A stretch of 38,367 bases of DNA, taken from a virus. A model generated the notes under the pieces. The model saw only the letters and a program-made list of their open reading frames with translations. It searched no databases and was not told the DNA's origin. The position numbers were made by a program, and so were the translations under genes. This document shows positions 8,517 to 38,367 of the stretch, piece after piece. The DNA is taken from positions 1 to 38,367 of IMG/VR virus record IMGVR_UViG_3300005264_000061, one strand, 5' to 3'. Every line of letters begins with the position of its first letter. Position 1 is the stretch's first letter.

Positions 8517-8944
8517 TTTATCAGATCATTATCATAGTTATCTATAAATCCAGTATATATTTCTGATTCTGTTTTAAAAGGTATAGATTTTATATATTCT
8601 TGAGAAGTTATTTCTTTTTTATATGCTTTAAATCGTAATAATTTATCATTTGTTATTAATATAGGTTTATCAATTTTTGAATTTATAATATTATTTAATA
8701 TAATATTATCAGGTGAATTTCCAACAATATCACCAAAAATAGTAATATCATTTTTAAATGTGTTTAAACTAGAGACAACATCTTTAATTTGTTGTCTTAA
8801 ATGTGGTTTTCTTTTTAATTTATCAATTTCATCGATTACAATTTCAGGAATAAAAATATTATTTTCATTGCCATTTATTAATATTTTTATACAATTTGGA
8901 TCATCAATTAAAATATTAGTATCAATTATATAATTTTTTTTCAT
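8513..8944 (-). CDS. PIN-domain protein (PhoH2 N-terminal half)
   Basis: A 143-residue PIN-domain nuclease. The start has IIDTNILIDDP with Asp 8, the middle IPEIVIDEIDKLKR (about 32-45), and later ILITNDKLLRFKA, the usual acidic active-site order. The tail ESEIYTGFID resembles the start of the linker found in PIN-PhoH fusions. PIN domains cut single-stranded RNA. It overlaps the PhoH-like gene by ATGA, so the two are translated together and probably form one RNA-processing unit. It could be a natural split or a decayed fusion with the linker lost. Confidence 0.8.
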   Translation of the reverse strand: MKKNYIIDTNILIDDPNCIKILINGNENNIFIPEIVIDEIDKLKRKPHLRQQIKDVVSSLNTFKNDITIFGDIVGNSPDNIILNNIINSKIDKPILITNDKLLRFKAYKKEITSQEYIKSIPFKTESEIYTGFIDNYDNDLIK

Positions 8945-9544: not shown

Positions 9545-10075
9545 ATGGAATTTAATTATCGTAATAATATTCAAAGTAATCAGTTAAATGAATCTAATGT
9601 AATAAAAATTTTTAAAGATCTTAAAAAAATGAGTAATAATAAGGTTAAAACCATTTTAAAAGATAGTTTTAAAAAGTTTTCGGATATGTTGATACAAAAT
9701 AATCTTGAATCACAATTTTTAAATATATTTAATAAACATTTTAAAACAAATTATAAATCACTTAAACAAGTAAATAGTCTAAAAGAATCAATATTAAATG
9801 AAGATTTTAAGAATTTTTTAAAATTTTGGAAAAGTGAGACATATCCAGCATTGGCCATATTTCCTACTTTACAAATATGGTTTCAAATAGATAAATTATT
9901 AGATGGTGTTGGTCTTATGGATTTAGATTGGAAAAAAATTGCTATATATGGTGTCTTATGGATCATTATTGTTACTGGTCAACATATGATACTTTTTAAC
10001 AAATGGAAAAAAGAAAATAAAGAAGAATGGGAAGCCGAAGGTAAACCAGGTATTTTTAAAAGTGGTGTAAAATGA
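9545..10075 (+). CDS. Late membrane-associated protein, 176 aa
   Basis: Start 9545 is preferred to 9533 because GGAG (9536-9539) sits five bases before it. Residues 1-80 are polar and lysine-rich; after that two hydrophobic segments (around YPALAIFPTLQIWF and IAIYGVLWIIIVTGQHMILF) suggest a membrane hairpin, with a charged C-terminus. The first 16 residues end in QLNE, an (L)-x-E site like those following the putative capsid-targeting peptides, though the rest of the tag is weak. It overlaps the next gene by ATGA. First gene of the rightward late region; function unknown. Confidence 0.6.
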   Translation: MEFNYRNNIQSNQLNESNVIKIFKDLKKMSNNKVKTILKDSFKKFSDMLIQNNLESQFLNIFNKHFKTNYKSLKQVNSLKESILNEDFKNFLKFWKSETYPALAIFPTLQIWFQIDKLLDGVGLMDLDWKKIAIYGVLWIIIVTGQHMILFNKWKKENKEEWEAEGKPGIFKSGVK

Positions 10076-10845
10076 GATTTAAACAATATCTTAATGATCA
10101 GCAAATAGAAGATATAGATATATCATATGATGTATATTGTGATGCTATTGATAAAATTATGGAAAATAATCTTGATGAAAGTTTATTTGATGGTATTAAA
10201 AATATTAAAGGTTCAATTGTAAAAGTTTTTACTGATTTAAAAGATACTATTAAAGAATTATCAAATCAGTTTAAATTAAGTATTAAAGATATTGTAATAG
10301 CATTTAAACAAAGAGATGTTTTTATGTTATTAAAAACAATTGGATTTAAGATAAAAGTATTATTTAAAAGTATCAATGCATTAACTAAAGCTGTTAGAGG
10401 TGGATTATTTTCTATTTTTGCAGAAATATCTAATTCAGGTATTATGAAAAAAATCAAATCAGGTACTATGAAAATTGATGATTTTCTTAATAAATATCCA
10501 AAATTAAAAAAGATTAGTGGTATAGTTATTGCTGGATTACTTCTTTATATGTGGTTAAATATGACATTTATAGGTGATCTTGATTATGATTTTAATTTTT
10601 TAGATATATCTAATGCCTTAAAGGGTTCATTTTCAATAACAGATTTATTTCTTAGTCCATCTGGAATTATGTTAATATCATTATTTGCTACAGGTTCAGG
10701 ATTAGGTATATCTGTTCCTTGGTTGGGGGCATCATTATATAATTTTACATTAGCTATTGTGTATACTGGATTTATAAAAAATAGATCAAAAGGTATAAAT
10801 ATAATAAGTATAAAGAACAAAATAAAAAGTTTTAAATTAAAATAG
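10072..10845 (+). CDS. Tagged late membrane protein, 257 aa
   Basis: Begins with the tag MRFKQYLND shared by many genes at 34-37 kb. Residues 30-150 are amphipathic and lysine-rich; then come hydrophobic stretches ISGIVIAGLLLYMWLNMTF (about 146-164) and FLSPSGIMLISLFATG (about 198-213), and a further one ending ALAIVYTGF-like near 228-236. Similar proteins occur in late regions of T4-like phages from memory, with no known function. With the preceding gene it may form a virion or membrane component delivered at infection; this is inference. Start coupled by ATGA. Confidence 0.6.
   Translation: MRFKQYLNDQQIEDIDISYDVYCDAIDKIMENNLDESLFDGIKNIKGSIVKVFTDLKDTIKELSNQFKLSIKDIVIAFKQRDVFMLLKTIGFKIKVLFKSINALTKAVRGGLFSIFAEISNSGIMKKIKSGTMKIDDFLNKYPKLKKISGIVIAGLLLYMWLNMTFIGDLDYDFNFLDISNALKGSFSITDLFLSPSGIMLISLFATGSGLGISVPWLGASLYNFTLAIVYTGFIKNRSKGINIISIKNKIKSFKLK
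10794..10801 (+). promoter_or_regulatory. Candidate late promoter inside the preceding gene
   Basis: TATAAATA in the context GGTATAAATATA, the same as at 16519-16530, lies 56 bases before the ATG at 10857. It is inside coding sequence, so chance cannot be excluded. Confidence 0.4.
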
Positions 10846-10856
10846 GAGAAATCAAA

Positions 10857-11087
10857 ATGGGTGAATTTACAGATTATAGAATGGATGAACAAAATAAAAA
10901 GATACTTGATATATTAGAAGCCAAAGGTGATGGTAAAAAATATGAAGCATTTTTTAAAAAAATGCTTAAAAAATATGGTGTTACTGAGCCTGATCAATTG
11001 AGTACAGAAAAAAAGAAAAAGTTTTTTAAAGAGATTGAAGATGGTTGGACTACAGAAGATCCAAAAACTAATGATAAGGATGAATAA
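10857..11087 (+). CDS. Conserved small late phage protein, 76 aa
   Basis: A 76-residue highly charged protein (AGGAGAAATCAAAATG start). The core KYEAFFKKMLKKYGVTEPDQ followed by L..EKKKKFFKEIEDGW (about residues 28-65) resembles a small helical protein repeated across T4-like phage genomes near structural genes, of unknown function. No Cys and no hydrophobic segments. Its TAA overlaps the next ATG (TAATG). Confidence 0.6.
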   Translation: MGEFTDYRMDEQNKKILDILEAKGDGKKYEAFFKKMLKKYGVTEPDQLSTEKKKKFFKEIEDGWTTEDPKTNDKDE

Positions 11088-11593
11088 TGGGACAAAATAA
11101 ATTAAAAGATTATTTGTTGTTAGAAGGTGATGTAGAAGAAATTGAAGAAAGATATTCAAATTTCTTTGAAGTAGTTGGTATACTTTTTGATTCTCTTGAG
11201 TTTGATGTTATATCAGATGATACACATGAAATGTTAGATGATTTAATTGATAAAGTTATTGATATTATATTATCACTTGGTGATGAGGAATTCGATAAAG
11301 ATACAAATAGAGCTTTTATGAAAGTAGTCACTATGCTTGATCTTGATCAAGAAATATCAGAAGGACTTACAGTTAAATCTAGAAAAGTAAATTCTGGAAG
11401 AAAAAGATCAAGTGCATCAAAAATTACAGGTGCTGAAAAACTTAAATATTTAAAACGATTAAAAAAGAATCGTAAGAAATATAAAAAGTCAGCATCATTA
11501 AGAAGACAAACTAAAAGACAACAAAAAAAATATAAAAAAACTGCTGGTGCAAAAAGAGCTAAACAAAAATATAATACTTTTAATAAAAAATAA
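11087..11593 (+). CDS. Tagged protein with strongly basic tail
   Basis: 168 residues in three parts: an N-terminal tag-like LKDYLLLE (residues 5-12, ending in L-x-E), an acidic helical middle (about 13-110), and a C-terminal 60 residues packed with K and R (LKYLKRLKKNRKKYKKSASL and similar). The tail suggests DNA or RNA binding. The arrangement suits an internal head protein targeted to the prohead core, cleaved, and bound to packaged DNA; a core/scaffold component is an alternative. Coupled by TAATG at both ends. Confidence 0.55.
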   Translation: MGQNKLKDYLLLEGDVEEIEERYSNFFEVVGILFDSLEFDVISDDTHEMLDDLIDKVIDIILSLGDEEFDKDTNRAFMKVVTMLDLDQEISEGLTVKSRKVNSGRKRSSASKITGAEKLKYLKRLKKNRKKYKKSASLRRQTKRQQKKYKKTAGAKRAKQKYNTFNKK

Positions 11594-12269: not shown

Positions 12270-13427
12270 ATGGCGTTCTATATGAGCCCGTTAGTTCATG
12301 TCAAAGAAACGGATTTAAGTATAACAATACCTGCAGTTGCTACATCAATAGGTGTTTGTATACTTAGAAATACTTATAAAGGTCAAGAACTTAAACAAGG
12401 ATTTGTAACAAATGAAGATGAATTAATTAATAAATTTGGTGAACCAACTAATGATGCACATTGTTATCAAGATATGTTATCTGCAGCTGGTTTTCTTAAA
12501 TATGGTAGAAATCTTTATGTAACAAGAGTTATAGCAGAAGATTCAACATTTGCTGGTGTTAAAATTATGCCTGATGGTCAAGGTGAAGTTTTTTCACCAT
12601 CTTATACTTTACAAGATTTGGCCAGTGAAGATCCTGATGCCTTTGCCACTGATGTAATTGTAAATGATAATAATCCATTATGGTTTATTGCTTCTTCAAG
12701 GGGTAGTTGGGGTAATAAAATTAGAATATCTTTACTTGATAAAAGTTCTCAAACTCAAATGTTATCTGGTGGTCTTGATAATTGGGATACATACCCATTA
12801 TTTACTTCACTTGATATGCCAATTGAAGATGATTATTCTTTTTTGATTGCAATTGAAGAAAAAGAACAGGGTGAAGAACTTTGGACATTAAAAGAAACAT
12901 TTGAAGTATCAACTAAAGAAAAGGCAATTGATAATCAAGGTATAACAAAGTTTGTTGAAAATGTTATAAATCAAAGATCTCAATTAGTAAGATGTACCAT
13001 TAAAGATGATGAAATTGATGAAACATGGAGTATTGGAACAGCTACACCTGTAAGACTTGAAGGTGGAATTATGGGTTCAATGGGTGTTACTGATGCAGAT
13101 ATTATGGATGCTCTTGATCTTTATTCTAACCCAGAAGAAATTGATGTTAGTATGTTTATTGATTCCAATAAATCACTTGAAGTTAAAAAATATATGAATC
13201 AGATTTGTGAAAAAAGAATGGATTGTATGGCATTACTTGATTGTGAATATGATTTAGTTGTTAATAATAGAGGTAATGAAACTACTGATCTTAAAGATTG
13301 GAGACGTGGAATTAATCTTTTTGCATCTGGTAATAATCTTAATATCAATACATCATATAGTGCTGTATATGGTAATTGGATTGAAGTATATGATAGATAT
13401 AATAGAAAATATAGTAACAAGTGTTAG
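12270..13427 (+). CDS. Contractile tail sheath protein, N-terminal part (gp18-like)
   Basis: A 385-residue frame covering the first part of a T4 gp18-type sheath: the N-terminal MSPLVHVKETDLS, the IGVCILRNTYKGQE strand, GFLKYGRNLYVTRV, and SSRGSWGNKIRISL are typical. It stays sheath-like to NWIEVYDRYNRKY (up to about 13412), then reads SNKC and a TAG. The conserved segment expected next, which in T4 gp18 runs from RWVPMAGDIAG through ARTD to the NRGQ region (about 34 residues), is absent. Reading resumes in another frame at 13414. The gene therefore looks broken by a deletion of about 100-110 bases, unless this is an assembly error. Confidence 0.85.
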   Translation: MAFYMSPLVHVKETDLSITIPAVATSIGVCILRNTYKGQELKQGFVTNEDELINKFGEPTNDAHCYQDMLSAAGFLKYGRNLYVTRVIAEDSTFAGVKIMPDGQGEVFSPSYTLQDLASEDPDAFATDVIVNDNNPLWFIASSRGSWGNKIRISLLDKSSQTQMLSGGLDNWDTYPLFTSLDMPIEDDYSFLIAIEEKEQGEELWTLKETFEVSTKEKAIDNQGITKFVENVINQRSQLVRCTIKDDEIDETWSIGTATPVRLEGGIMGSMGVTDADIMDALDLYSNPEEIDVSMFIDSNKSLEVKKYMNQICEKRMDCMALLDCEYDLVVNNRGNETTDLKDWRRGINLFASGNNLNINTSYSAVYGNWIEVYDRYNRKYSNKC

Positions 13428-13905
13428 ACGTTTAGCTTGGAATCCAGATTTAGGTAAAAGAGATATTCTTTATAAAAATGGTATTAATCCAATAGTATCT
13501 TTTGCAGGACAGGGCAAAGTTATTTGGGGTCAAAAAACAATGCTCGATAAATCATCAGCATTTAATAGAGTAAATGTTAGAAGACTTTTTATTGTACTGG
13601 AAAAGGCAATATCTACAGCATCTAAATATTTCTTATTTGAACCAAATGATGAAGCAACAAGAGAAAGTATGATTGCAATGATTAATCCTTTTCTAAGAGA
13701 TGTTAAAGGTAGAAGAGGTATTTATGATTTTAAAGTAGTATGTGACAGTACAAATAATTCACCTGAAAGAATTGATAGAAACGAAATGTGGGTATCATTA
13801 TATATTAAACCTACAAGAACTGCCGAATTTATTGTATTGAATTTCATTGCAATGAAAACTGGTGCTTCTTTTAGTGAAGCTGCAGCAATTATGGGTGAAA
13901 TATAA
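13414..13905 (+). pseudogene. Tail sheath protein, C-terminal part, out of frame
   Basis: From about 13414 the frame +1 relative to the N-terminal part encodes the rest of the sheath: VRRLAWNPDLGKRDILYKNG, INPIVSFAGQGKVIWGQKT, FNRVNVRRLF, and the C-terminal FDRNE-like IDRNEMWVSLYIKPTRTAEF and NFIAMKTGASF. These match the polymerised core of T4 gp18 closely, so this is sheath sequence and not a separate gene. No ribosome site precedes it. As written, this protein would not be made joined to its N-terminal part. The size of the lost segment should be 2 modulo 3. Confidence 0.8.
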
Positions 13906-16016: not shown

Positions 16017-16460
16017 ATGAAGATAATAGACAAAATAAACAAATATTTAAATGAAAATAGTATTAATATTAATAATACTATTAATGAAGAATATCAATGG
16101 GATGTTCAAGATGATTTTTTAGAACTTTTGTCAAAAATAGATCCTGAAAGCTGGGAAAAATATACCGATTGGGAAGGTGTTACTGGTAATAAACCAAGAG
16201 CAACTACAAGAATATTAAACAAAGTTGCAGTTATAATAAATAATATTGACAAATTATTATTAAAAGCAAGTATGAATATAGATAATTTATCTATATCAAA
16301 ACAAAATAATATATTAAAAAAAGAAATTGATAAATATATTAATAAAAACAAAAATAAAAGTGAAGTTAATAAGGATTTTTATAAGGTATATTCAAAAAGT
16401 AAAAATGCATTTTTATATGTGAGTAGATTTAAAGATGAACTTGATTTTTATGGTAGATAA
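16017..16460 (+). CDS. Tagged protein, 147 aa, of unknown function
   Basis: Begins MKIIDKINKYLNEN, very like the micro-gene at 25624 (MKTIDKLNKYLNEK) and ending in the L-N-E cleavage-type site shared by the putative capsid-targeting peptides. The body has a folded-looking part (residues 28-65, with SWEKYTDWEGV) and a helical lysine/asparagine-rich part (66-147). It has its own late promoter and ribosome site. It stands among tail genes but, if the tag is functional, it would be carried in the head. Confidence 0.6.
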   Translation: MKIIDKINKYLNENSININNTINEEYQWDVQDDFLELLSKIDPESWEKYTDWEGVTGNKPRATTRILNKVAVIINNIDKLLLKASMNIDNLSISKQNNILKKEIDKYINKNKNKSEVNKDFYKVYSKSKNAFLYVSRFKDELDFYGR

Positions 16461-25623: not shown

Positions 25624-25722
25624 ATGAAAACAATAGACAAATTAAATAAATATCTCAATGAAAAAATTAAAGAATATACTGATCATTTTGGTGACAGATT
25701 ACAAGTTATTGAAAAATGGTAA
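25624..25722 (+). CDS. Micro-gene consisting mostly of the targeting tag
   Basis: A 32-codon frame beginning two bases after the gp25 stop. Product: MKTIDKLNKYLNE, then about 19 residues ending VIEKW. The first 13 residues match the start of the 16017 protein at 11 positions, and end in L-N-E. It looks like a capsid-targeting peptide with almost no cargo. The ribosome site (AAAGGATAAAA) is good. Confidence 0.5.
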   Translation: MKTIDKLNKYLNEKIKEYTDHFGDRLQVIEKW

Positions 25723-27587: not shown

Positions 27588-29915
27588 ATGCCAAAATTTA
27601 CAGATCCAGCATATTTTTTACTAGATCATTATCTTGATACAGTAAATCAACAAACAGAAGATGATATTAAATCCCGTGTTGAAAATCTTTGGCCTGTTAT
27701 ATTTACTGATATAGAAATTATTACTGAGTGGAAAGATTATAATAATGTAGTTTGGAATTTTGAATATGAAACAGTTGAAGGATCATATTCAAATAAACAA
27801 GTAAATTATCTTTATGGTGAATCAATGCTAATTGGTGCAAACAAAGGTATTATTGCATCTGGTGGCAGAATTATTGATCTATATGTAAAAGATCCAGATT
27901 ATGGTTATAGAGAAATTCATGTTACACCACCTTGGAACGAATACGCTGATGGTAATTTTTTTAAATTTCATAAACATATCACTTTACCATATCAATATGG
28001 TAGCACATTAACAGAAACTATATCAGGCAACAATTATTATTTTAATATATTTACACCATTAGTTACCTTTGACCCTGATGATATAATAGGAAAAGAAGTA
28101 TATTTTAGAAAAGATAGTGAATTTCATACATGGCTATTAAATTATGCTAAAGATTTTTTTGAAGAAAAATGGGAACAAGAATTTATTATAAGAAATTATG
28201 TCAATACAGATAAACAATTTTTATACTTTGGTAAAATATATCATAGATATGAAGATGAATATCATATAGAATTTTATGGTATGAAAGATTTTATTGAAAG
28301 AGCTGTACCATATCATCAAAGAACACCTAATTTTAAACAATTTATAAACATTCAATATGATAGAGTATATCAAGAAACATTTAATTTATTGAAAAATATA
28401 TGGTCAATGATTGATCCATTTGAAGTAGATGAAAAATTTCTTGGTTATTTATCAAGATTTTATAATATTAATATTGATAATCAAATAATAGATATACAAA
28501 ATCAAAGAGAATTTATTAGAGAAATGTCAAATTATTTGAGACGTAAAGGTGGTTATAGTTCATATTTTGCTGCTTGGAAAGTACTAACACAAGGAACTAA
28601 AAATGAATTAAAAATATATGAAAAATGGGTACCAAGTAATACATCACCTACATCACCTTTATCTAGTGATAATTATGTAGACGTTCTTTATACAAATCAT
28701 TATAACAATACAAATACTTTCCCATTATCTGGTAATATTGATGATTGGATACTTTCAACACATTATAAAATTCAAATAGATTTATCAACTGAACCAATTG
28801 AATATGAGAAAATATTAACTAAAGGAACAATTGAAAGTTTAATTGAACAATGGGAAATGATGCGACCTGTAAATAAAGTATCTGAATATGAAATTTTAAT
28901 TAAACCAGTTGCAGATTTAACTGGTTATTTTAAAAGCTTATATCCTGGTAATCAAGAAAAATATAATACTAATATATTAAGTAAAGTTTATAAATTTTCA
29001 ATAACAGTAAATAATGCATTTATTCAAATTTTTGGTGGTGGTGGTACATCATTTAATATTCCACATAATCTTAATTCTAATCATTTATTTATAAGATGTT
29101 ATACAAATACTTTTGAAGAAATTATACCAAGTGATGTAATATTTATTGATGATGATTTGATAAATATAGTATTTGCAGAACCTATAAGTGGGTTTGTGTT
29201 AATTAAAAAACCAGATTTGTCAATAACACAAATTGCAAATATTACCGATACATGGGTTATTAAACATTCATTTAATGAAGAAAAATTATATATTGAATTT
29301 AATCAAGACAATGAAAAATTATATTCAGGTGATTTACAATTAATTGATGAGGAATTTTTTAGTACAGATTTAAAAAGAGGTACAGCAAATATATCACCAC
29401 CAGATATGCTATATATACAAGAATTACCAAGTAATGAATGGCATATTGAACATAATTTAGGATATAAAGGATTGCTTATTAGTTGTTATGATATAAATAA
29501 TAAAGAGATTATACCAGAAGATATAAACTTTATTGATATAAATAATTGTATAATAAAATTTGAAGAAAATATACAAGGTCATGCCATTTTGGTTACTGTA
29601 GGTAGTCCATTATTTGTTGATCACTTGATTGAAGATGGCAATTTACCTTATTATAAAGTAAGTTCTACAATAGATAAATTTGATACTTTTGATTACGAAG
29701 GAAGAATAACTGAAACTAACGAAACAAATGATCATCTTTATATTACTATTGACTTACCACAATTAAGGGAACTAACTATTCGAGAAATTAAAATCTTCAA
29801 TGATGACGGTACTATTTTATTTTATACAGAATGTGGAGAAATTTTTAAACCTATGAATGTAAAAATGAAGATTATATATAAAATTAACAAATACATCACA
29901 GAGGGGAGTTCATAA
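27588..29915 (+). CDS. Baseplate wedge protein with P2 gpI-like domain and beta repeats
   Basis: A 775-residue protein combining an N-terminal baseplate part, a P2 gpI/gp7-like middle (MIDPFEVDEKFLGYLSRFYN then REFIREMSNYLRRKGGYSSY, about residues 278-330), and a C-terminal set of about three beta modules of the W.I.HN..... type (such as EWHIEHNLGYKGLLISCYD and NNKEIIPEDINFID). These modules recur in the next two genes. It probably replaces T4 gp7 and anchors the fibres. The start is 6 bases after the gp6 stop. The last residues overlap the next ATG. Confidence 0.7.
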   Translation: MPKFTDPAYFLLDHYLDTVNQQTEDDIKSRVENLWPVIFTDIEIITEWKDYNNVVWNFEYETVEGSYSNKQVNYLYGESMLIGANKGIIASGGRIIDLYVKDPDYGYREIHVTPPWNEYADGNFFKFHKHITLPYQYGSTLTETISGNNYYFNIFTPLVTFDPDDIIGKEVYFRKDSEFHTWLLNYAKDFFEEKWEQEFIIRNYVNTDKQFLYFGKIYHRYEDEYHIEFYGMKDFIERAVPYHQRTPNFKQFINIQYDRVYQETFNLLKNIWSMIDPFEVDEKFLGYLSRFYNINIDNQIIDIQNQREFIREMSNYLRRKGGYSSYFAAWKVLTQGTKNELKIYEKWVPSNTSPTSPLSSDNYVDVLYTNHYNNTNTFPLSGNIDDWILSTHYKIQIDLSTEPIEYEKILTKGTIESLIEQWEMMRPVNKVSEYEILIKPVADLTGYFKSLYPGNQEKYNTNILSKVYKFSITVNNAFIQIFGGGGTSFNIPHNLNSNHLFIRCYTNTFEEIIPSDVIFIDDDLINIVFAEPISGFVLIKKPDLSITQIANITDTWVIKHSFNEEKLYIEFNQDNEKLYSGDLQLIDEEFFSTDLKRGTANISPPDMLYIQELPSNEWHIEHNLGYKGLLISCYDINNKEIIPEDINFIDINNCIIKFEENIQGHAILVTVGSPLFVDHLIEDGNLPYYKVSSTIDKFDTFDYEGRITETNETNDHLYITIDLPQLRELTIREIKIFNDDGTILFYTECGEIFKPMNVKMKIIYKINKYITEGSS

Positions 29916-31549
29916 TGTCAAGGTTTCATTATTGGCAATTTCTGATTAATAAAGAAGGTCAACCTATACCTGATGCAAATATTAATGTGTATCTTGCAGG
30001 AACAGATACATCAGCTTACGTATATTTTGATGAATTTGGTTCAAATACTTCAAATGAAGAACCACAAGTCATTACTAATAATATGGGGTATTTTGAATTT
30101 TGGGTGGCTGACGCTTCTGAAGCATATGGATATCAGAAAGGACAAAAATTCAAAATAGAATGGGAGAAACCAGGAGTAGCTTTAGGCAAAATTGATTGGG
30201 TTGATATCTTTCCTCATGTAGTAGAAGTAGACGAAACTGACGTTACATCAACGGCAAAAAATAAAGTAATTTCAAATAAACTAGCTTATAGATGGGAAGA
30301 ACATAAAAATTCAACACTTCAAAATGATGGATTTCCTATTCATGGTATAGAAGCTGTTAATGAAGTTGATGAAGATATTTTTCCAAATAAAGTAATATCA
30401 AATAAACTAGCTAAAAAATGGGATAGTCATTCTACATTTTCATTTGAAACGTCTGCAACGTCTGCAACAGCTGCACATGATTTACAACCAATAAATATTA
30501 ACAGTCAAGATACAATATTTAATAAATTAATTAATAATAAGATATTGTTTGATATTAATGAATCAATTATTACTATTAATGAACTTCTTGAATCAGGAAT
30601 TGGCAATGCAGGTAATATCTTTATATCACATTCTTTAAGTGATACATGGATATTAACACATAATTTTGGTGTTAAATATGTTGCAGTAACAATTTTTGGT
30701 ACTGATGATTTAGAAATTAAACCAAAATCTATTGAATTGACTAATTTGAATACTGTAACAGTATTATTTGATGAATCAATTGAAGGTTATGCTGTTATTA
30801 CCGGAAATGTAGTAGAAGGTGGTCCAAGTATACCACCTTTTGTTATTGAAGGTGATCATGGTAGTTTAACTGGTTTAGGTTCTGATGATCATACAATATA
30901 TCCATTAGTTAATGGATCAAGAGGTTTTACTAATCCAATTAGTGGTTCGATGCCAATTAGTGGAGATCATTTAACAACTAAAGAATACGTTGATTATGAA
31001 ATTAATAATATATTAATTGATCATTCAAGATTATCTAATCCATCTATAGGTGATGATCATTTACAATATATTCATATTGATAGTAGAAGAGGTTTTACTA
31101 ATCCAATTATTGGTAAATCACCTATAGAATTTAATCATTTGGCAACTAAAGAATATGTTGATAATAATACTATATTATCACATACTGATTTACAAAATAA
31201 AGATTATGATGATCATTTACAATATATTCATATTGATGGTAGAAGAGGGTTTACACATAATATATCAGGTATAATACCTATAGCACCAACACATTTAGTA
31301 ACTAAAGAATATGTTGATCAAAATATAGTATCAAAATATGATATTAATATATCATCATGGGATTTCAATGGTATAAATTATTTTAAAAATATTAATCATA
31401 ATTTAAGTGAAAATTATCCAATAGTAATGATATGGGATCAAATATCTAGAGAAATAATTAATCCTATTAAAATAGAATCAATTGATGATAATAATATCAT
31501 TATTACAGTATCTACAAATAATAATATGATCATTAAAGTGAGGACATAA
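29915..31549 (+). CDS. Fibre-connector protein with Ig-like N-terminus
   Basis: A 544-residue protein. The N-terminal 90 residues (KEGQPIPDANINVYLAGTDT and later FEFWVAD) look like a carboxypeptidase-regulatory/Ig-like domain found in baseplate-to-fibre connectors. One W-I-L-T-H-N beta module lies at about 235-300, followed by three fibre repeats with the pattern (S/G)DDHLQYIHID.RRGFT...P....HL.TKEYVD (about 315-475), and a last degenerate module. The DDH.QY motif is a tail-fibre signature. It starts within the preceding stop codon. Confidence 0.65.
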   Translation: MSRFHYWQFLINKEGQPIPDANINVYLAGTDTSAYVYFDEFGSNTSNEEPQVITNNMGYFEFWVADASEAYGYQKGQKFKIEWEKPGVALGKIDWVDIFPHVVEVDETDVTSTAKNKVISNKLAYRWEEHKNSTLQNDGFPIHGIEAVNEVDEDIFPNKVISNKLAKKWDSHSTFSFETSATSATAAHDLQPININSQDTIFNKLINNKILFDINESIITINELLESGIGNAGNIFISHSLSDTWILTHNFGVKYVAVTIFGTDDLEIKPKSIELTNLNTVTVLFDESIEGYAVITGNVVEGGPSIPPFVIEGDHGSLTGLGSDDHTIYPLVNGSRGFTNPISGSMPISGDHLTTKEYVDYEINNILIDHSRLSNPSIGDDHLQYIHIDSRRGFTNPIIGKSPIEFNHLATKEYVDNNTILSHTDLQNKDYDDHLQYIHIDGRRGFTHNISGIIPIAPTHLVTKEYVDQNIVSKYDINISSWDFNGINYFKNINHNLSENYPIVMIWDQISREIINPIKIESIDDNNIIITVSTNNNMIIKVRT

Positions 31550-31923
31550 TGAGATTTAAAAAATATCTGATTAAAAATTCCAGTATACAAATTTTTAGAT
31601 CATTACAAATTAAACTTGTAGAAAAAAAAACTAACCATATCCAAGTCGTTGATTTTATTGAAAAAAATTATAATTTATCTGGACAAATAAAAGTTTTATT
31701 AAATAAGTCAAATTGTCAATTAAAAAATATGTATAAAGGAAAATATAAATTTGATTTGTGTTTAGATGAAGGCATATTACCTGATAATATAATAAGAATA
31801 GATAATAAAAAAATTAAATTAATAAAAAAAGAATGGTATAAAGTAAATAGTGATTTAGCTAAAATACAAAACCAATTTGAAAATTATTTACAACAAAGGG
31901 CAAATAATAATGAAAAAATATAA
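31549..31923 (+). CDS. Tagged protein, 124 aa, of unknown function
   Basis: Starts MRFKKYLIKN, the shared tag, coupled to the end of the fibre-connector gene (TAATG). An L-V-E site follows at about residues 26-28. The rest (VVDFIEKNYNLSGQIKVLLN, KGKYKFDLCLDEGILPDNII) looks like a small alpha/beta protein with no recognised family. It stands between two fibre genes. It overlaps the next micro-gene by 14 bases. Confidence 0.55.
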   Translation: MRFKKYLIKNSSIQIFRSLQIKLVEKKTNHIQVVDFIEKNYNLSGQIKVLLNKSNCQLKNMYKGKYKFDLCLDEGILPDNIIRIDNKKIKLIKKEWYKVNSDLAKIQNQFENYLQQRANNNEKI

Positions 31924-32017
31924 TAAAAATCATATTTGTTCATTAAATGAATCATCTAGTGTTGACACAAATAAATTTTGTAAAATTGTCATGAATATGC
32001 CTGGATACGGAGAATAA
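31910..32017 (+). CDS. Micro-gene with targeting-like start, 35 aa
   Basis: A 35-codon frame with AAAGGG upstream of ATG 31910. It reads MKKYNKNHICSLNES, ending the first part in L-N-E, followed by about 20 polar residues. It resembles the micro-gene at 25624 in size and design. It overlaps the end of the previous gene in another frame. Confidence 0.4.
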   Translation: MKKYNKNHICSLNESSSVDTNKFCKIVMNMPGYGE

Positions 32018-32055
32018 AATGATAATTTATAAGATAATGTATAGAGAGGACAAAT

Positions 32056-34323
32056 ATGATTACACCAAGTAGAGTATTTGCTGCTATTAATATTCATGGT
32101 GGTAGTGACAAATCACTGGATTCAATACCTTCTAATTTGATCAAAAATGGTGATTTTGCAATTGTTCAAGATGAAAGTAATATATACTTCTATGTTTGTG
32201 ATGCAGATTCTAATTTACCAGAAAATATTCCTTACATTGTAGAACCAGATGATTTAAATGCAGGCGGAATAACAAGTTATAAAAGATGGCATCTTGTTTC
32301 AACTAAATATTTTGTTGACGATATAATACAAACTAACGGTAGTTATATCAAAACAAGCAAAATTAAAGCTATTGAAAACGAAGGATTAAAATTTATATCA
32401 TCTGATGGTATTACTATAACATTAACTCCTGATGGAAAATTAAATACATATAAAATAATAGCAAATGATCAAGTAACAGTTAATACAGACGGAAGAAGAC
32501 CACCTTTTATTATAGATTCATCTTTATTAGTTGAAAATTTAAATGCAGATAAATTAGATGGTTATCACGCTGATAGATTTATATTAAAAGATGGTTCTAT
32601 ACCATTTACTGGTACAGTTCAAGGTGTTGATCCTGTTAATGACCAAGATTTGACAACTAAACAATGGACAGAAGAATATATTCTTCAAATAGAAAATACA
32701 ATATATTCATATGTTGATGACGCTATTGCAGCTATAGATGTAAATGTTGACTTGTCAGGTATAGAAAATACAATAAATTCACATCTTAGTACATCAAGTG
32801 ATGACCATTTACAATATATCCATATAGATGGTAGAAGAAATTTTATTAATCCTATTGGTGGTGTTACACCTACAACATCAAATCATTTTACTACAAAAAA
32901 TTATGTGGATGTTGCAATATCATCAATTATAACTAGTCATAGTAATTTAACAAATCTTGATAATGATGATCACGAACATTATTCTCATATTGATGCAAGA
33001 CGTGGGTTTATTAATCCAGTTGAAGGTAAAACACCTATTACTGACTTTCATTTGGCAACTAAAGAATATGTTGATGAAAGAATAGCTGGTATATTTAATA
33101 CTAAAAAACTCCAAATTCATACTTTTGACCATAATACTACTGAATGGGTTATTAATCATAATTTTGGTAATAAATATATTGTAGTAGACTTTTACGATAA
33201 ATTTGATAATAAACAAATTAAACCAGATTCTTTAATACTAGTTAATGACGATACGGCTATAGCAACATTTATAAATGGAACAAAAGGTTATGCAGTTGTT
33301 ACAGGATTAACTGAACATTATAACCATACAAATAGTCAAACTTGGATAGTAGAACATTCATTTTCTTCTAAAGAAGTTATATTTAATATATTTAATAATA
33401 ATAATGAAGAAATATTTCCAGATACTACTACTATAATTGATAATACACATATTGCATTTACATTTTCTTCACCAGAACAAGGGTATGCTGTACTTTCAAA
33501 TGATATTATTGTTTATCATTTTTCAACTCCAGCACTTGAATGGCATATTTTTCATACATTTAATAATAAAAATTTACTAGCTAATTGTTTTACAGATAGT
33601 AATATAGAAATAATTCCAGATAATATAGAAGCAACTGATGATAATACATTACTTTTAACTTTCCATGATCCAAAATCAGGATATGTTGTTGTTTCAGGTA
33701 GCGAGGCAATTATACTTGATCCAGGTATGTTTATTATTAATCATAATCATTTGAGAAATCTTGATAACGATGATCATATACAATATAGTTTAGTTGATGG
33801 CACAAGAGGATATACAGGCACAATTGCTGGTATATATCCAGTTGCAGATGAACATTTAACAACTAAACAATATGTGGATGATGAAATATTATCAGCCATC
33901 GGTAATGTTATTGTTGATCATAGTGGTTTATCTGGATTGGACAATGATGATCATACACAATATATTCTAGTTGATGGCACAAGAGGTTTTACTGATGTTA
34001 TTGAAGGTGTCCATCCTACACAAGCATTTCATTTAACAACTAAACAATATGTTGATTCTGTTGTTAATGCATCTTCAAGTGTAGCTCAAAGAGGCGTTAT
34101 ACCATTAGTTCAAAATGCAGATAATATTACTGTTCATTTAACAACATCATTATCATCTGATTATTCAATAGAATTAACTATTGAAAATACTATAGATATA
34201 AATCCATCCATATATAGTTTCATGATAGTAAGAAAAACAACTACTGAATTTGATGTTATATTTAGTGGTTATATTGATAGTAATAATTATAATTTGAATT
34301 ATACAGTACACCCAATAAATTAA
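32056..34323 (+). CDS. Tail fibre protein, 755 aa
   Basis: The N-terminal 160 residues are mixed (MITPSRVFAAINIHGGSDKS), then LNADKLDGYHADRFILKDGS (about 167-186), a fibre-shaft motif. Four fibre repeats of the DDH..Y...D..R.F......P....H.TTK.YVD type follow (two at about 250-345, two at about 560-680), separated by three W.I.H.F beta modules (about 350-555). The end is a short beta-rich head. It is likely the receptor-binding or proximal fibre. AGAGAGGACAAAT precedes the ATG. No chaperone gene is recognised. Confidence 0.75.
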   Translation: MITPSRVFAAINIHGGSDKSLDSIPSNLIKNGDFAIVQDESNIYFYVCDADSNLPENIPYIVEPDDLNAGGITSYKRWHLVSTKYFVDDIIQTNGSYIKTSKIKAIENEGLKFISSDGITITLTPDGKLNTYKIIANDQVTVNTDGRRPPFIIDSSLLVENLNADKLDGYHADRFILKDGSIPFTGTVQGVDPVNDQDLTTKQWTEEYILQIENTIYSYVDDAIAAIDVNVDLSGIENTINSHLSTSSDDHLQYIHIDGRRNFINPIGGVTPTTSNHFTTKNYVDVAISSIITSHSNLTNLDNDDHEHYSHIDARRGFINPVEGKTPITDFHLATKEYVDERIAGIFNTKKLQIHTFDHNTTEWVINHNFGNKYIVVDFYDKFDNKQIKPDSLILVNDDTAIATFINGTKGYAVVTGLTEHYNHTNSQTWIVEHSFSSKEVIFNIFNNNNEEIFPDTTTIIDNTHIAFTFSSPEQGYAVLSNDIIVYHFSTPALEWHIFHTFNNKNLLANCFTDSNIEIIPDNIEATDDNTLLLTFHDPKSGYVVVSGSEAIILDPGMFIINHNHLRNLDNDDHIQYSLVDGTRGYTGTIAGIYPVADEHLTTKQYVDDEILSAIGNVIVDHSGLSGLDNDDHTQYILVDGTRGFTDVIEGVHPTQAFHLTTKQYVDSVVNASSSVAQRGVIPLVQNADNITVHLTTSLSSDYSIELTIENTIDINPSIYSFMIVRKTTTEFDVIFSGYIDSNNYNLNYTVHPIN

Positions 34324-34335
34324 AGGAATATTTAA

Positions 34336-34938
34336 ATGAGATTTAAAAAATATATAAATGAAAGTAAACAAAAATGGCCAGATAATAAAATTATTAATGT
34401 GTTATCTAAAGGTCTTGATTACGACGATGTGTTTAGTCAAATAGCAATGAGTTTAAGAAATTATAATAAGATTGATACATTTGATAAAATTTATCTCCAA
34501 AAAAATAATAATAAATTGATGGATGAATTATGGTATAGAACAGCAAGTGCTATTGAAAAAAGTGAAAGATTTGATCCTAAATTTATGAAAACTTTAAAAA
34601 AAAATTTCTATTCACTTGAAAAAACTTTATTTAAAGATTATAAAAAAATAGATAATTTTTATACTACTCAAAAAAATTTACTTGAAGGTAAAGTAACAAC
34701 TTTTGATATGAAAAAGTTAAAATATTTTAGTTCAGATACTATTAAAAAATTTCTAAATTCTATAGATTGGCGAAATAAAAGAATTTCTCAAGATAATAAT
34801 ATTGTAGGTGGAACACAAAAAGATACACGACTTTTTATTAAAGCATTGATAAAAGCAGATAAATTATCTACTAAAGAATTGGGATTCGGTGAAACAAAAG
34901 AACAAACACATGATTATAAATATTTGAATAGTATTTAA
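34336..34938 (+). CDS. Tagged protein, 200 aa, of unknown function
   Basis: Starts MRFKKYINES: the tag followed at once by I-N-E, the cleavage-type site. The remainder is helical and lysine-rich with no recognised family (ELWYRTASAIEKSERFDPKF near 70-89 is the best folded-looking part). First gene of the tagged cluster after the tail fibre; AAGGAATATTTAAATG start. It overlaps the next gene by TAATG. Confidence 0.6.
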   Translation: MRFKKYINESKQKWPDNKIINVLSKGLDYDDVFSQIAMSLRNYNKIDTFDKIYLQKNNNKLMDELWYRTASAIEKSERFDPKFMKTLKKNFYSLEKTLFKDYKKIDNFYTTQKNLLEGKVTTFDMKKLKYFSSDTIKKFLNSIDWRNKRISQDNNIVGGTQKDTRLFIKALIKADKLSTKELGFGETKEQTHDYKYLNSI

Positions 34939-35504
34939 TGTCAAGATTTAAAAAATATTTGATTATGGAAATGAGTATTGCACATGCAGCAACATTCGCA
35001 GCCAAAAAACATCAAGGACAATACAGAAAATCATCTGGTGCACCATATATTGTTCATCCTAGAGGTGTGTTTAAAATATTAAAAGATATTAAAATAAAAG
35101 ATAATCAAGTATTAATTAGTGCATATCTACATGATACAATCGAAGATACTAAAACATCATATAATGAAATTAAAAATGAATTTTCAAAAGAAGTAGCTGA
35201 TATGGTTAAACAGTTAACCAATGATAAAAAAGAAATCTTGAAGGTTGGAAAACCAGAATATTTATTAAATAAAATGATAAAAATGTCTGATGGTAGTTTG
35301 ATAATTAAACTTGCTGATAGATTACAAAATGTAAGTGATATCATGTTATCTAGTCATAAATTTGCAGAAAAAATGTGGTCACAAACATATTATATACTTA
35401 AAAGATTAAAAACAGAAAGAGTTCTTACACAAAATCATAAAAAACTTATTAGAAGAATATTTAAAATATTAGAAAAATACAAATCATTGGAGTTGAAAAA
35501 ATGA
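34938..35504 (+). CDS. Tagged (p)ppGpp hydrolase (SpoT/MESH1-type HD domain)
   Basis: A 188-residue HD-domain hydrolase of the SpoT/MESH1 type. All key motifs are seen: AAKKHQGQYRKSSGAPYIVHP with His 40, ISAYLHDTIEDT with His 65-Asp 66 and Glu 69-Asp 70, FSKEVADMVKQLT, and IKLADRLQN with Asp 127 and Asn 131. The enzyme removes the 3'-pyrophosphate of (p)ppGpp; no synthetase domain is present. The first 11 residues, MSRFKKYLIME, are the tag plus an I-x-E site, and the HD fold starts right after it. It is coupled on both sides (TAATG, ATGA). Delivery with the DNA would let it suppress stringent response at once; that step is inference. Confidence 0.85.
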   Translation: MSRFKKYLIMEMSIAHAATFAAKKHQGQYRKSSGAPYIVHPRGVFKILKDIKIKDNQVLISAYLHDTIEDTKTSYNEIKNEFSKEVADMVKQLTNDKKEILKVGKPEYLLNKMIKMSDGSLIIKLADRLQNVSDIMLSSHKFAEKMWSQTYYILKRLKTERVLTQNHKKLIRRIFKILEKYKSLELKK

Positions 35505-35641
35505 GATTTAAAAAATATTTGAGTGATATGAAAAAATGTCCAAAAGGTGAACAATGGTGTAATAAAAGTAAAAAATGTGTTCCTATTGGTTCCGGTAATA
35601 GAGATGGCGAAAGAAAAGGGAGATTTAAAAATGAGATTTAA
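35501..35641 (+). CDS. Tagged Cys-motif mini-protein, 46 aa
   Basis: A 46-codon frame beginning in the stop of the hydrolase gene (ATGA) and overlapping the next start by 11 bases. It reads MRFKKYLSDMKK, then CPKGEQWCNKSKKCVPIG with three Cys (13, 20, 26), and a basic G-rich end. The CP.G..W.....KCVPIG pattern resembles a short motif I recall from other phage virion proteins. No L/I-x-E site follows the tag. Confidence 0.5.
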   Translation: MRFKKYLSDMKKCPKGEQWCNKSKKCVPIGSGNRDGERKGRFKNEI

Positions 35642-36455
35642 AAAATATCTTTTAAATGAAAAAACTGCCAGAATTGGTGCAGATGTAGATATGATATATA
35701 AATTATCTTTTTTAAAATATGAAAAAATTTTTAAAAAAGATGATCTTCAATTGTTTATAAAAGAAATTCAATCTACCAATAATATCGGTAATGGACAGTT
35801 TATTTTTAATACATTTAACTCTTCTATTTTAAAATCAAGAGATTGCAGGATGGCTCATGATATTAATCCTATTAATATACAATGTGGTTTATTAAATGGA
35901 AATTTTTATAGACCAATAGATAAAATGATTCAAATATCATTAAATATGAGTGCTACAAATATATTAATAATGCATAAAATAAAAAATATTGATGATTTAT
36001 CAAAAGTTATAAAAAATTCTGATATATTGGAAAGAATACAGTCTGAATTTGATGGTAAAAGTATAAAAGGATCAATTTATCATGAATTGTCACACTGGAT
36101 AGATGATTCAAAACATAATTTTCATATTACTAAAATGATCAAAAAAGCATCAGAATTACAATCTACTGATATTATGAAAAAAGATGGTAGTGTTGTATTC
36201 ACTGATTATGAAATAGAGGCACAAGTTCATGCTATTAAACAATTAAAAAGAGAATTTAATAAATCTTGGGATTTCATAACATGGAATGATATAATACAAT
36301 TTAAACCATCTTTTGATGTGATTAAAAATCAATTAAAACAATCAAAACCAATTGTTCAAAAAAATTATTATCAAAGATTAATTAAAAGACTTAATAGAGA
36401 AAAATTATTGGGCAAATTAATGCAAAAAACATTTAAAAAATATATGTTACAATAA
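35631..36455 (+). CDS. Tagged zinc metallopeptidase (HELSH)
   Basis: A 274-residue protein. The start at 35631 is chosen over the upstream GTG at 35547 because AAAGGGAG lies before it and because it restores the shared tag MRFKKYLLNE, ending in L-N-E. HELSH at 151-155, in GSIYHELSHWIDD, is a canonical HExxH zinc site, and EIEAQVHAIKQL (about 198-209) could supply the third ligand (Glu). No signal peptide or membrane segment. The substrate is unknown: host protein, phage protein or cell-wall-linked peptide. Its DNA start overlaps the previous micro-gene. Confidence 0.7.
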   Translation: MRFKKYLLNEKTARIGADVDMIYKLSFLKYEKIFKKDDLQLFIKEIQSTNNIGNGQFIFNTFNSSILKSRDCRMAHDINPINIQCGLLNGNFYRPIDKMIQISLNMSATNILIMHKIKNIDDLSKVIKNSDILERIQSEFDGKSIKGSIYHELSHWIDDSKHNFHITKMIKKASELQSTDIMKKDGSVVFTDYEIEAQVHAIKQLKREFNKSWDFITWNDIIQFKPSFDVIKNQLKQSKPIVQKNYYQRLIKRLNREKLLGKLMQKTFKKYMLQ

Positions 36456-36469
36456 ATATAGGTAAATTT

Positions 36470-36667
36470 ATGAAATTAAAAAAATATTTAAATAATATTA
36501 ATGAAAGAAAACATTTTATGATGATATATTCAAAAGAAATGGAATCACTTGACGATGCATTTAATGCTATATCTTCTATTAAAATGGAAGATAGATATCT
36601 TCAAAAAAAATTAAATAGTATTAAAATAAATATTAAATATATACAAGGTCTATTAAGAAAGGTATAA
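36470..36667 (+). CDS. Tagged mini-protein, 65 aa
   Basis: Starts MKLKKYLNNINER: a tag variant followed by I-N-E at residues 10-12. The remaining 50 residues are a charged, helical segment (MESLDDAFNAISSIKMEDRY). No family is recognised. TAGGTAAATTTATG gives a weak ribosome site; the gene starts 14 bases after the metallopeptidase stop. Confidence 0.55.
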   Translation: MKLKKYLNNINERKHFMMIYSKEMESLDDAFNAISSIKMEDRYLQKKLNSIKINIKYIQGLLRKV

Positions 36668-36671
36668 CTTA

Positions 36672-36998
36672 ATGAAGTTTAAACAATTTTTATATAAACA
36701 AAAAGTAATAAATGAAATAGAGAATATAAATAAATGTATAATATTAAATGATTTTCAAATGGAATTATTTGAAATATTTCTTAATGAAAAAACTAATGTT
36801 AAAGTAAATACTAATATTATTAAAATAGCTATTAAATTTCTTACAAAAAAATTTGGATTAAAAGAAGAAGATTTTACTTATATTGGGTTCACTGATTTAT
36901 CATTAATAAAAAAAGGTGCAAAATTATTACAATTTAATATTATTAATCCAAATCATAAATCATATAAAAGTACTGTAGCTTTTAAATACGGATTATAA
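36672..36998 (+). CDS. Tagged protein, 108 aa, of unknown function
   Basis: Starts MKFKQFLYKQKVINEIEN: a tag variant with I-N-E at residues 13-15. The rest is a small alpha/beta-like chain (FQMELFEIFLNEKTNVKV, KKFGLKEEDFTYIGFTDL) with no recognised family. AAAGGTATAACTTAATG precedes it, only four bases after the previous stop. Confidence 0.55.
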   Translation: MKFKQFLYKQKVINEIENINKCIILNDFQMELFEIFLNEKTNVKVNTNIIKIAIKFLTKKFGLKEEDFTYIGFTDLSLIKKGAKLLQFNIINPNHKSYKSTVAFKYGL

Positions 36999-37016
36999 TT
37001 TTTTAAGGATATTATA

Positions 37017-37517
37017 ATGAGATTTAAAAAATATTTAAATATGTATGAAATACCTATTACTGATGGTTTAAATGAAGTTACTGTCGTTGGTGATGTATCA
37101 GTTGATTTTCGAGTACCAAAAATTAATAAAGAAAAATATAGAAAATTAAACAAACGAACTAATAGAATGAAAAATTTTAAAAAAGTTAAATATTATAAAA
37201 CTAATATTAAACCAGAAGATAGATCATTCAAAAATTTACCAAGATATAAAGGTACAAATAAACCAATATGTAGATTTCAAGATTGGTTATGTTTAGAAAC
37301 TGATTCTGAATATACTAAAAAAGGTGCTAGTGGTGGTAAAGCAGCTAATGGGAAATATTATGGATATAGTCATAGGGCTGTATTTGGATTTGCACCTGGA
37401 CAAGAAATAAAAAAAGGACATATAGCTATTAAAAAAGGAAGACAATTACCATATAAAATAAAAAATGATGCCGATGCCAAATGGCACGCTATAGAATTTT
37501 CAAGACAAGTAAGTTAA
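37017..37517 (+). CDS. Tagged basic protein, 166 aa
   Basis: Starts MRFKKYLNMYE; an L-N-E site follows at about residues 19-21 (DGLNEV). Residues 35-75 are strongly basic. The C-terminal part (SGGKAANGKYYGYSHRAVFG, then FAPGQEIKKGHIAI and AKWHAIEFSRQVS) resembles a conserved phage domain of unknown function that I recall from other large phages. AAGGATATTATAATG start. Last gene of the tagged cluster. Confidence 0.6.
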   Translation: MRFKKYLNMYEIPITDGLNEVTVVGDVSVDFRVPKINKEKYRKLNKRTNRMKNFKKVKYYKTNIKPEDRSFKNLPRYKGTNKPICRFQDWLCLETDSEYTKKGASGGKAANGKYYGYSHRAVFGFAPGQEIKKGHIAIKKGRQLPYKIKNDADAKWHAIEFSRQVS

Positions 37518-37521
37518 ATAA

Positions 37522-37550
37522 TTGATTTTAAATGATAATTGTAGTATAAT
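37522..37550 (+). promoter_or_regulatory. Sigma70-type promoter before the late sigma gene
   Basis: TTGATT (37522-37527), 17 bp, TATAAT (37545-37550), in the gap after the tagged cluster. It would let the late sigma factor be made by host-type polymerase before late transcription begins. Confidence 0.6.
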
Positions 37551-37571
37551 TTATAATAGGAAAAAATATAA

Positions 37572-37631
37572 ATGTCTCAAAAATTTACATACAATTATGT
37601 TAAAAATTTTTTAAAATGTGGGAGTATATAA
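37572..37631 (+). CDS. Leader micro-gene before the late sigma gene, 19 aa
   Basis: A 19-codon frame (MSQKFTYNYVKNFLKCGSI) with AGGAAAAAATATAA before its ATG; its TAA overlaps the next ATG (TAATG). It may be a tiny protein or a coupling leader for the sigma gene. Confidence 0.35.
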   Translation: MSQKFTYNYVKNFLKCGSI

Positions 37632-38074
37632 TGAAATATATAAAAAATAGTGATTTAATACCAGAACTGGAAAAAATGAAAGCAAATGATAATATCATTT
37701 CAGAAGAATTGGCAGAAATGTTTTATTTAATTGCAAAAAATTTAAGTAATAAAAGTAATTTTATAAGTTATACATGGAAAAACGATATGATACAAGAAAG
37801 TATTTTAACATGTGTAAAATATATAAAGAATTTTGATTTAGAAAAAAGCCAAAACCCTTTTGCTTATATAACAACAATTTGTAGTCATTCTTTTATTGCT
37901 TTTATTAAAAAACAGAAAAAACATTCTCATATTAAAGATGTTTGTTATAAAGAAATATCAAGATTAGAAGAACAAAAAAATATTTGGATAAATAAAAGTA
38001 TAGATTATACAATATTAGTTGATAAAAAGAAAAAAAGGAAAAATAAAAATGTCAAAAATGAAGGATTATATTAA
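37631..38074 (+). CDS. 55: Late-transcription sigma factor gp55
   Basis: A 147-residue protein matching T4 gp55, the sigma-like factor that directs host RNA polymerase to TATAAATA late promoters with the sliding clamp. Seen motifs: ISEELAEMFYLIAKNLSNKS, FISYTWKNDMIQESILTCVK, and NPFAYITTICSHSFIAFIKK, the sigma region 2-like core, followed by KKHSHIKDVCYKE. The start at 37631 is chosen over 37616 because GGGAG lies at 37620-37624. T4 gp55 is 185 aa, so this is a shorter version. Several TATAAATA boxes in this window fit its action. It overlaps the next gene by 26 bases. Confidence 0.88.
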   Translation: MKYIKNSDLIPELEKMKANDNIISEELAEMFYLIAKNLSNKSNFISYTWKNDMIQESILTCVKYIKNFDLEKSQNPFAYITTICSHSFIAFIKKQKKHSHIKDVCYKEISRLEEQKNIWINKSIDYTILVDKKKKRKNKNVKNEGLY

Positions 38075-38367
38075 AAATTCATATAAAGGTATTAATTTAT
38101 ATGCACCAAGTGACTTTTGGGAAATGTCAAATGAAGAAATAAGTAAAATTTCAAATGGTTGTGGTGCAGCCGGTGCAGCAATAGATTATGTTCCAGATAC
38201 AATTTACGGATTAAATATATCACCAGCTTGTGATATTCATGATTATGGGTATTATCGTGGTGGAACAATTAATGATAAATATATTGATGATTTATTTTTG
38301 CTAATTAATACTATGGAAATTATTAAAGAAAAAACAAATTGGAAACTTTTAAAAATTTTAAGACTCA
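38049..38367 (+). CDS. Phospholipase A2-like protein (partial, cut by window end)
   Basis: At least 106 residues, running off the window. SNGCGAAGAAIDYVPDTIYG leads to CDIHDYGYYRGG (residues 61-72), the C..HD..Y core of the phospholipase A2 fold (His 64, Asp 65), followed by a second helix (KYIDDLFLLINTM). It overlaps the end of the late sigma gene by 26 bases in another frame. The start MSKMKDYIKNS is loosely like the tag (M-K-x-Y-I) but lacks an L/I-x-E site. Phospholipid cleavage could help entry or lysis. Activity is inferred from motif only. Confidence 0.65.
   Translation, partial: MSKMKDYIKNSYKGINLYAPSDFWEMSNEEISKISNGCGAAGAAIDYVPDTIYGLNISPACDIHDYGYYRGGTINDKYIDDLFLLINTMEIIKEKTNWKLLKILRL

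Follow-up and report, generated by a model that had tools for sequence, protein, structure and literature searches.

A shared N-terminal tag resembling the T4 capsid-targeting sequence marks a varied, probably virion-borne protein set in an uncultured T4-like phage

Results

Nine genes of one phage fragment share a short N-terminal tag

The IMG/VR record IMGVR_UViG_3300005264_000061 is a linear virus record of 38,367 bases from an uncultured T4-like phage, and its whole length is the window analysed here. The window has a GC content of about 25% and encodes tail genes of the T4 superfamily (sheath, three tube-type proteins, baseplate hub, spike and the gp25 and gp6 wedge proteins), together with a small-terminase-like gene and a gp55-type late sigma factor. 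No near match was found among 50,697 phage records when bases 30000-38000 were used as the query. Nine genes, starting at 10072, 31549, 34336, 34938, 35501, 35631, 36470, 36672 and 37017 (Table 1), begin with variants of the peptide M-[RK]-[FL]-K-[KQ]-[YF]-[LI], hereafter the tag, which an earlier note on this DNA had likened to the capsid-targeting peptide of T4 internal proteins. All nine have an ATG and an open frame, and the seven at 34336-37517 are consecutive, as the note had described, and co-directional.

The pattern M(S)[RK][FL]K[KQ][YF][LI] is matched by 9 of the 51 predicted window proteins, compared with 0 in 2000 shufflings of residues 2-40. Genes were called with a simple caller that picks starts by a simple rule, which makes the gene counts approximate and some starts possibly wrong. 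A looser pattern applied in six frames found elsewhere only the related start at 38049 and one out-of-frame stretch of 11 codons. An [IL]xE motif, a potential prohead-protease site that had been said to follow most tags, has its end between residues 5 and 20 in 6 of the 9 tagged versus 8 of the 42 untagged proteins (Fisher P = 0.008; residue shuffling P = 0.0005). In the six it ends at residue 9, 10, 11, 12, 15 or 20; in the 31549 and 10072 proteins it does not occur before residues 25 and 31, respectively, and the 35501 protein has none. Asp replaces Glu in 10072 (YLND) and 35501 (YLSD). Among four further genes proposed to have related starts, those at 16017, 25624 and 11087 match an extended form of this core, and the resemblance at 31910 is weak.

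The tag matches the T4 capsid-targeting sequence at its critical positions

T4 IPII and IPIII start MKTYQEFIAE/A and IPI starts MKTFKEF...TITE/A (a slash marks the known or predicted cut). Mutants of T4 IPIII have shown that residues 4 and 7 direct targeting and residues 8 and 10 direct processing, and that Asp at residue 10 blocks processing with targeting intact (PMC9026906). The tag fits all four positions, with an aromatic or hydrophobic residue at 4, an aromatic at 7, Ile or Leu at 8 and Glu at 10. In MRFKKYL, Phe aligns with Tyr4 and Tyr with Phe7 of the IPIII capsid-targeting sequence (CTS) at identical spacing, and MRFKKYLxE keeps the IPIII spacing with one residue less ahead of the first aromatic. 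The variable distance to [IL]xE in the window also resembles T4, where IPII and IPIII differ likewise from IPI. Because Asp at IPIII residue 10 spares targeting and blocks processing, we predict that the 10072 and 35501 proteins would be packaged and stay uncut at the Asp site.

The likeness extends to T4 IPI, IPII, IPIII and Alt, all with a gp21-cut CTS, in the short N-terminal propeptide, about 10-19 residues long in this class, and its key spacing (aromatic or hydrophobic, +3 aromatic, +4 Ile/Leu, +6 Glu). T4 internal proteins likewise have unrelated downstream sequences, vary as cargo between phages and go with T4-type gp21 and gp23, found here in relatives. The letters differ, MKTYQEFIAE in T4 against MRFKKYLxE here, and so does the scale, with three internal proteins in T4 and about 27 tagged genes in one genome of the present clade. 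Unlike the T4 proteins, the cargo here includes recognisable enzymes and chaperone-type domains, and some tags have Asp at the cut position. Giant phages of the SPN3US/phiKZ type also carry ejection proteins in the head that are cut by the prohead protease (PMC5694885), but several of their propeptides exceed 100 residues, they share no nine-residue tag, and the relationship of protease and capsid is far more remote. Flavobacterium phage immuto, with T4-type head genes, has several genes near the head cluster with common short N-terminal starts whose sequences differ from the window tag. In immuto 2-6A (L108) these form two start families, M..NFDLKKFLVENKLT and MKK.QLR.II.+.L (also written MKKSQLR.II+E.L), which are possibly lineage-specific capsid-targeting tags.

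Relatives combine the tag with a gp21-family protease and a matching gp23 site

A DNA pattern scan of IMG/VR for M[RS]FKKYLxE-type starts returned 28 contigs, and in many of these 3-9 tagged genes lie close by. The T4-type protease (PF03420) and gp23 (PF07068) co-occur in the same 8 of 22 tag-bearing records; most records lacking both are short fragments, and those including the head region have a gp21-family protease and gp23. Two of the eight, G010 (100.9 kb) and G015 (161.6 kb), are collinear with the window, matching it in sheath, tubes, hub, spike, gp25, gp6, fibre-type genes, the 31549 protein and gp55, with sheath identities of 46% and 41%, respectively. Of the tag and the gp21-like protease for which the earlier note had suggested a scan, the tag is present in window and relatives, and the protease in the collinear relatives and not in the 38-kb fragment. 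Contigs found through the sheath gave no protease match; as these contigs are short or possibly without a head region, the result is no evidence of absence.

Glu65 in FLTE/A of T4 gp23, the known cleavage position, was located by alignment. There, relatives read YLTE/T, WLQE/A, FLAE/A, LITE/A, VFTE/A and MLTE/A, and further gp23 proteins of the G010 clade read YLNE/A, YINE/S, YLME/S, FLME/T, WLME/T and YLVE/A, mostly [YFW][LIMF]xE/[AST]. The motif at the end of the tag, [YF]LxE, is the motif at the gp23 maturation site of this clade. Protease and capsid cut site come from relatives at 41-46% sheath identity, and for the window phage we infer them.

The tag is far more frequent in relatives than shuffling predicts: 27 of 296 genes in G015 (0.93 expected; approximate gene calls), 13 of 193 in G013 (0.78) and 8 of 69 in G014 (0.31). 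It is rare after internal Met. The pattern [hydrophobic]xx[YFWH][LIM]xE occurs in residues 1-20 of 36 G015 proteins (2.0 shuffled) and in residues 21-40 of 3; the G010 counts are 13 (0.8 shuffled) and 0. Chance or AT-rich bias as the source of the tag is ruled out by the shuffles and by the internal-Met and residues 21-40 controls. In G015 the tagged genes cluster near 49-55, 92-95, 110-116, 125-127, 136 and 141-148 kb. A gp23-based search for close relatives that include the head genes led to a clade of 16 loci, none of them established as the same virus. In this clade the tag is on 17 of the 292 genes around gp23 (3 in the shuffle), whereas 64 other T4-type head loci have 5 of 857 (9 in the shuffle) and no excess, indicating that expanded use of the tag is clade-specific. 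Some gp21 genes themselves start near the cargo tag (L082:18180 MKLLREFI, L075:16456 MKLIKEYI, L086:4623 MKLIREFI), as would fit the suggestion of a targeting propeptide on gp21 itself.

Sequences behind the tag are unrelated, as the earlier note had held: BLAST sorts 173 tag-start proteins into 103 families, ruling out a single gene family spread by duplication. An alignment of 91 tagged proteins, selected by motif and with Glu not required for short tags, gives the consensus MxFKxYLxE and shares almost nothing beyond it. Glu stands at the exact YLxE spacing in 39 of 71 short tags, about half of the relatives' tags. Pfam names few of the 91 proteins: HD_4, DnaJ, cupin, ferritin-like/rubrerythrin, M78-like, Tad6 and several domains of unknown function. 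HExxH motifs occur in 4 of 127 tagged genes versus 6 of 676, an enrichment that is suggestive only.

Tags on otherwise untagged domains and exchange of tagged genes

The 34938 protein has the HDxxED motif of small alarmone hydrolases (PF13328, E 2.5e-16; MESH1 3nr1, E 5.7e-21, match from residue 14). Its phage homologues examined are untagged, and that of Vibrio phage pv27 begins near the residue after LIME/. Orthologous DnaJ-type proteins are tagged in two cultured phages, Nitratidesulfovibrio phage SRB7757 (MKSFKEYISE/A) and Variovorax phage V45v66 (MNRYESYLRE/V), and in contigs, and untagged in Lw1 and Phynn. By these comparisons the tags are grafted onto domains that occur untagged elsewhere. 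Untagged DnaJ-type genes of Straboviridae (L111, L112, L115, L116) start MINE or MITE directly before the domain; the persisting IxE is either a tag relic or a coincidence.

The slot between the homologues of 9533 and 11087 holds 10072 in the window and unrelated tagged genes in close relatives (MRFEQYINE/K, 185 aa, in L008; MRIEDKIEKYLNE/A, 101 aa, in L004). Between 31549 and gp55 the window has a fibre-type gene and seven tagged genes; in G010 the two homologues are separated by 64 bp, and in G015 by three fibre-type paralogues and zero tagged genes. Judged from these three genomes only, the interval looks like a cargo island.

Tagged proteins and other features of the window

Table 1. Tagged genes, related starts, flanking genes and other genes of the window (a slash marks the predicted cut)
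Position	Strand	N-terminus	Length	Remarks
7902-8516	-			PhoH-type protein, ATPase part
8513-8944	-			PhoH-type protein, PIN-like part; overlaps the ATPase gene, jointly matching one family, PHROG 2765
10072..10845	+	MRFKQYLND...	257 aa	tagged; hydrophobic segments; Asp at cut position
10857..11087	+	...ILDILE/AKGD		small protein
11087..11593	+	MGQNKLKDYLLLE/GD...	168 aa	fits longer tag version; Lys/Arg-rich C-terminus
16017..16460	+	MKIIDKINKYLNE/N		longer tag form
25624..25722	+	MKTIDKLNKYLNE/KIKEY...	32 aa	mostly tag; gene status uncertain
31549..31923	+	MRFKKYLIKNSS...	124 aa	tagged; left flank of candidate cargo island
34336..34938	+	MRFKKYINE/S	200 aa	tagged; no known family
34938..35504	+	MSRFKKYLIME/MSIAHAATF...		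tagged; MESH1/SpoT-type small alarmone hydrolase (HD_4)
35501..35641	+	MRFKKYLSD	46 aa	tagged; Cys-rich (CPKGEQWCNKSKKCVP); Asp at cut position
35631..36455	+	MRFKKYLLNE/K	274 aa	tagged; HELSH zinc-protease-like motif; no family match
36470..36667	+	MKLKKYLNNINE/R	65 aa	tagged
36672..36998	+	MKFKQFLYKQKVINE/I	108 aa	tagged
37017..37517	+	MRFKKYLNMYEIPITDGLNE/V	166 aa	tagged; Tad6-like C-terminal part
37616..38074	+			gp55-type late sigma factor, PHROG 234; right flank of candidate cargo island
38049..38367	+	MSKMKDYI...		related start; cut by window end

The 37017 protein matches Tad6 (PF25188), a type I Thoeris inhibitor, with E 2.7e-10 and 40.9 bits against a curated cut-off of 27; the match covers profile positions 70-145 of 145 only, and inhibitor activity is a prediction. 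For 35631 the mechanical open reading frame begins at an upstream GTG (35547), and the ATG at 35631, preceded by a GGGAG ribosome site, is the likely start. AlphaFold models from single sequences were unusable for both proteins (pLDDT 39 for 35631 and 31 for 37017), and direct relatives of these two and of gp55 were found in neither viral_contigs nor genome_contigs. The gene at 38049, absent from the earlier note's list, encodes CGxxG...CDIHDYGY, a resemblance to the phospholipase A2 site in motif only; the truncated protein scores 14.8 bits against PF09056, below the cut-off of 29.4. Homologues of 31549 have tag-like starts in G010 (MRLIKYL) and G015 (MKFRDYL), and the tag-like start of 11087 is kept in four relatives (MTDKFKEYM.., MMKDFKSFMLSE, NNFKDYMFE); its product is a possible prohead-core or DNA-binding internal protein. 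The L008 homologue of 10857 reads MNKIVKKIDVYLKE/AKGD, retaining [IL]xE in a different N-terminus.

Outside these genes, we observed that the sheath (12270-13905) runs for 385 aa before an apparent shift into the frame of the open reading frame 13258-13905. Sheaths of relatives have 575-580 aa, and a real frameshift, an assembly error and a programmed event are the candidates. Several fibre-type proteins (27588-34323), like those of G010 and G015, have common repeat blocks, HNFGNKYIVVxxYDxxxxxIxPDS and DDHxQYxxxDGxRGFTxPIxGxxP. A small frame at 4876-5046 has an internal direct repeat with two copies of LDLMTVIKKSGFAEK, and 7148-7600 encodes a macrodomain-like protein (MKIISGDLIKMGLTGDFDVIVHGCNCFHTMGGGIA) judged by eye only. 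The T4 late promoter TATAAATA was found 24 times with 23 expected, so this count cannot test late expression.

Discussion

We propose, with a probability of roughly 0.85, that the tag is a capsid-targeting propeptide of the T4 type, borne by an enlarged set of virion cargo whose members are exchangeable. The capsid-targeting likeness noted earlier is supported by the T4 CTS positions, the gp23-site motif, protease and gp23 in relatives, codon variation (below) and grafting, and also by tagged small genes that lie between gp20, gp21 and gp23, the T4 location of core genes 67, 68 and 22. In the mechanism we envisage, the N-terminal half (M-R/K-F/L-K-x-Y/F) would bind the forming prohead core and pull the tagged protein inside; after shell closure a gp21-family protease would cut behind [L/I]-x-E, releasing the mature protein among the DNA; and, together with the genome, the cargo would pass into the next host cell, where it would act ahead of any phage gene expression. 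The phage, and its relatives even more, would have put the tag on many unrelated proteins, exchanged at particular genome slots and ranging from alarmone hydrolase, DnaJ-type, zinc-protease-like and Thoeris-inhibitor-like proteins to many others with no assigned role.

Several points weigh against this proposal. The window contains no head genes, neither gp21 nor a core gene, so the phage's own protease and gp23 site are unseen. Three of the nine tagged proteins lack [IL]xE within 20 residues and the distance to the site is variable; the two tags with Asp at the cut position may escape processing. We found no virion proteomics for any phage in which precisely this tag occurs. For most of the cargo no function can be recognised, and part of the tagged set could therefore be core-building parts rather than injected effectors.

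Extended to most of the tagged proteins, this last point becomes the strongest alternative, in which the prohead core is indeed the destination of the tag but the tagged proteins are core, scaffold or head-morphogenesis helpers consumed in assembly. Tagged small proteins do lie among gp20, gp21, gp22 and gp23 in G010, G014, G015, G028 and G029, and between gp21 and gp23 both G010 and G015 carry small genes that are tagged or start with YLxE. Moreover, gp21 itself starts MKLIREFI.. in several relatives, 11087, which relatives conserve, ends in a tail rich in Lys, and in T4 both gp22 and gp67 are proteolysed after assembly (PMC5694885). However, the 34336-37517 set is not common to relatives, slot contents change between them, and the cargo has enzyme-like domains (alarmone hydrolase, HExxH motif) with no known assembly role; we consider the helper explanation unlikely.

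It is very improbable that the tag instead directs proteins to another place, such as the host membrane, the tail or a replication compartment. An N-terminus that is short, basic and amphipathic could attach to membrane, and the tagged genes of the window sit among tail genes, but the tag ends in [YFW]LxE like the gp23 maturation site, matches the T4 CTS positions and coincides with T4-type protease and head genes, and the other T4-type contigs sampled through gp23 show no excess of it.

Most window tags use identical AT-rich codons, which on its own is compatible with a DNA signal, and ATG(TCA)AGATTTAAAAAATAT is identical in 6 of 9 genes. In G015, tag codons vary (AGA/CGA, TTT/TTC, TTA/CTA/CTC/CTG/TTG, TAT/TAC, GAA/GAG) with constant residues, and this synonymous variation within a conserved tag indicates that selection acts on the protein. 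The idea that the start is a DNA or RNA signal over the start codon (a translation operator, late-promoter or recombination element) with the peptide as by-product is hardly credible, being disfavoured by this variation at Arg, Leu, Tyr and Glu codons, by upstream sequences that differ between genes, by cultured-phage orthologues that retain the protein pattern with different residues, and by a GC content at which few synonymous codons are expected anyway.

Since the tag matches the T4 head-loading signal position for position, enzymes and small proteins, in a large and swappable set, probably travel into the cell with the phage DNA, although packaging, cleavage, injection and the cargo functions are inferred here from sequence. 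The principle is known: T4 IPI-III are Type IV restriction inhibitors, each acting on a different GmrSD enzyme (PMC12373910), and reviews have already proposed the CTS as a means for T4-like phages to carry varied proteins (PMC9026906; PMC3012670). New here are the scale, a consensus unlike that of T4, cargo of enzyme type and the exchange at slots. Where T4 loads three small internal proteins in this way, each blocking a different restriction enzyme, the set here is far larger and more varied, and nearly all tagged proteins of the clade have no known function. On balance we lean towards the wider proposal that this clade has turned the CTS into a general, portable loading signal by which dozens of host-takeover and counter-defence proteins, swapped at slots and recognisable from sequence, would be carried per virion. 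As the tag can be read from sequence, proteins that uncultured phages would carry in before gene expression can be listed directly, and such lists yield candidate anti-defence and host-takeover factors. The tags of the clade are also a series of naturally occurring CTS variants that could serve to package proteins into phage heads.

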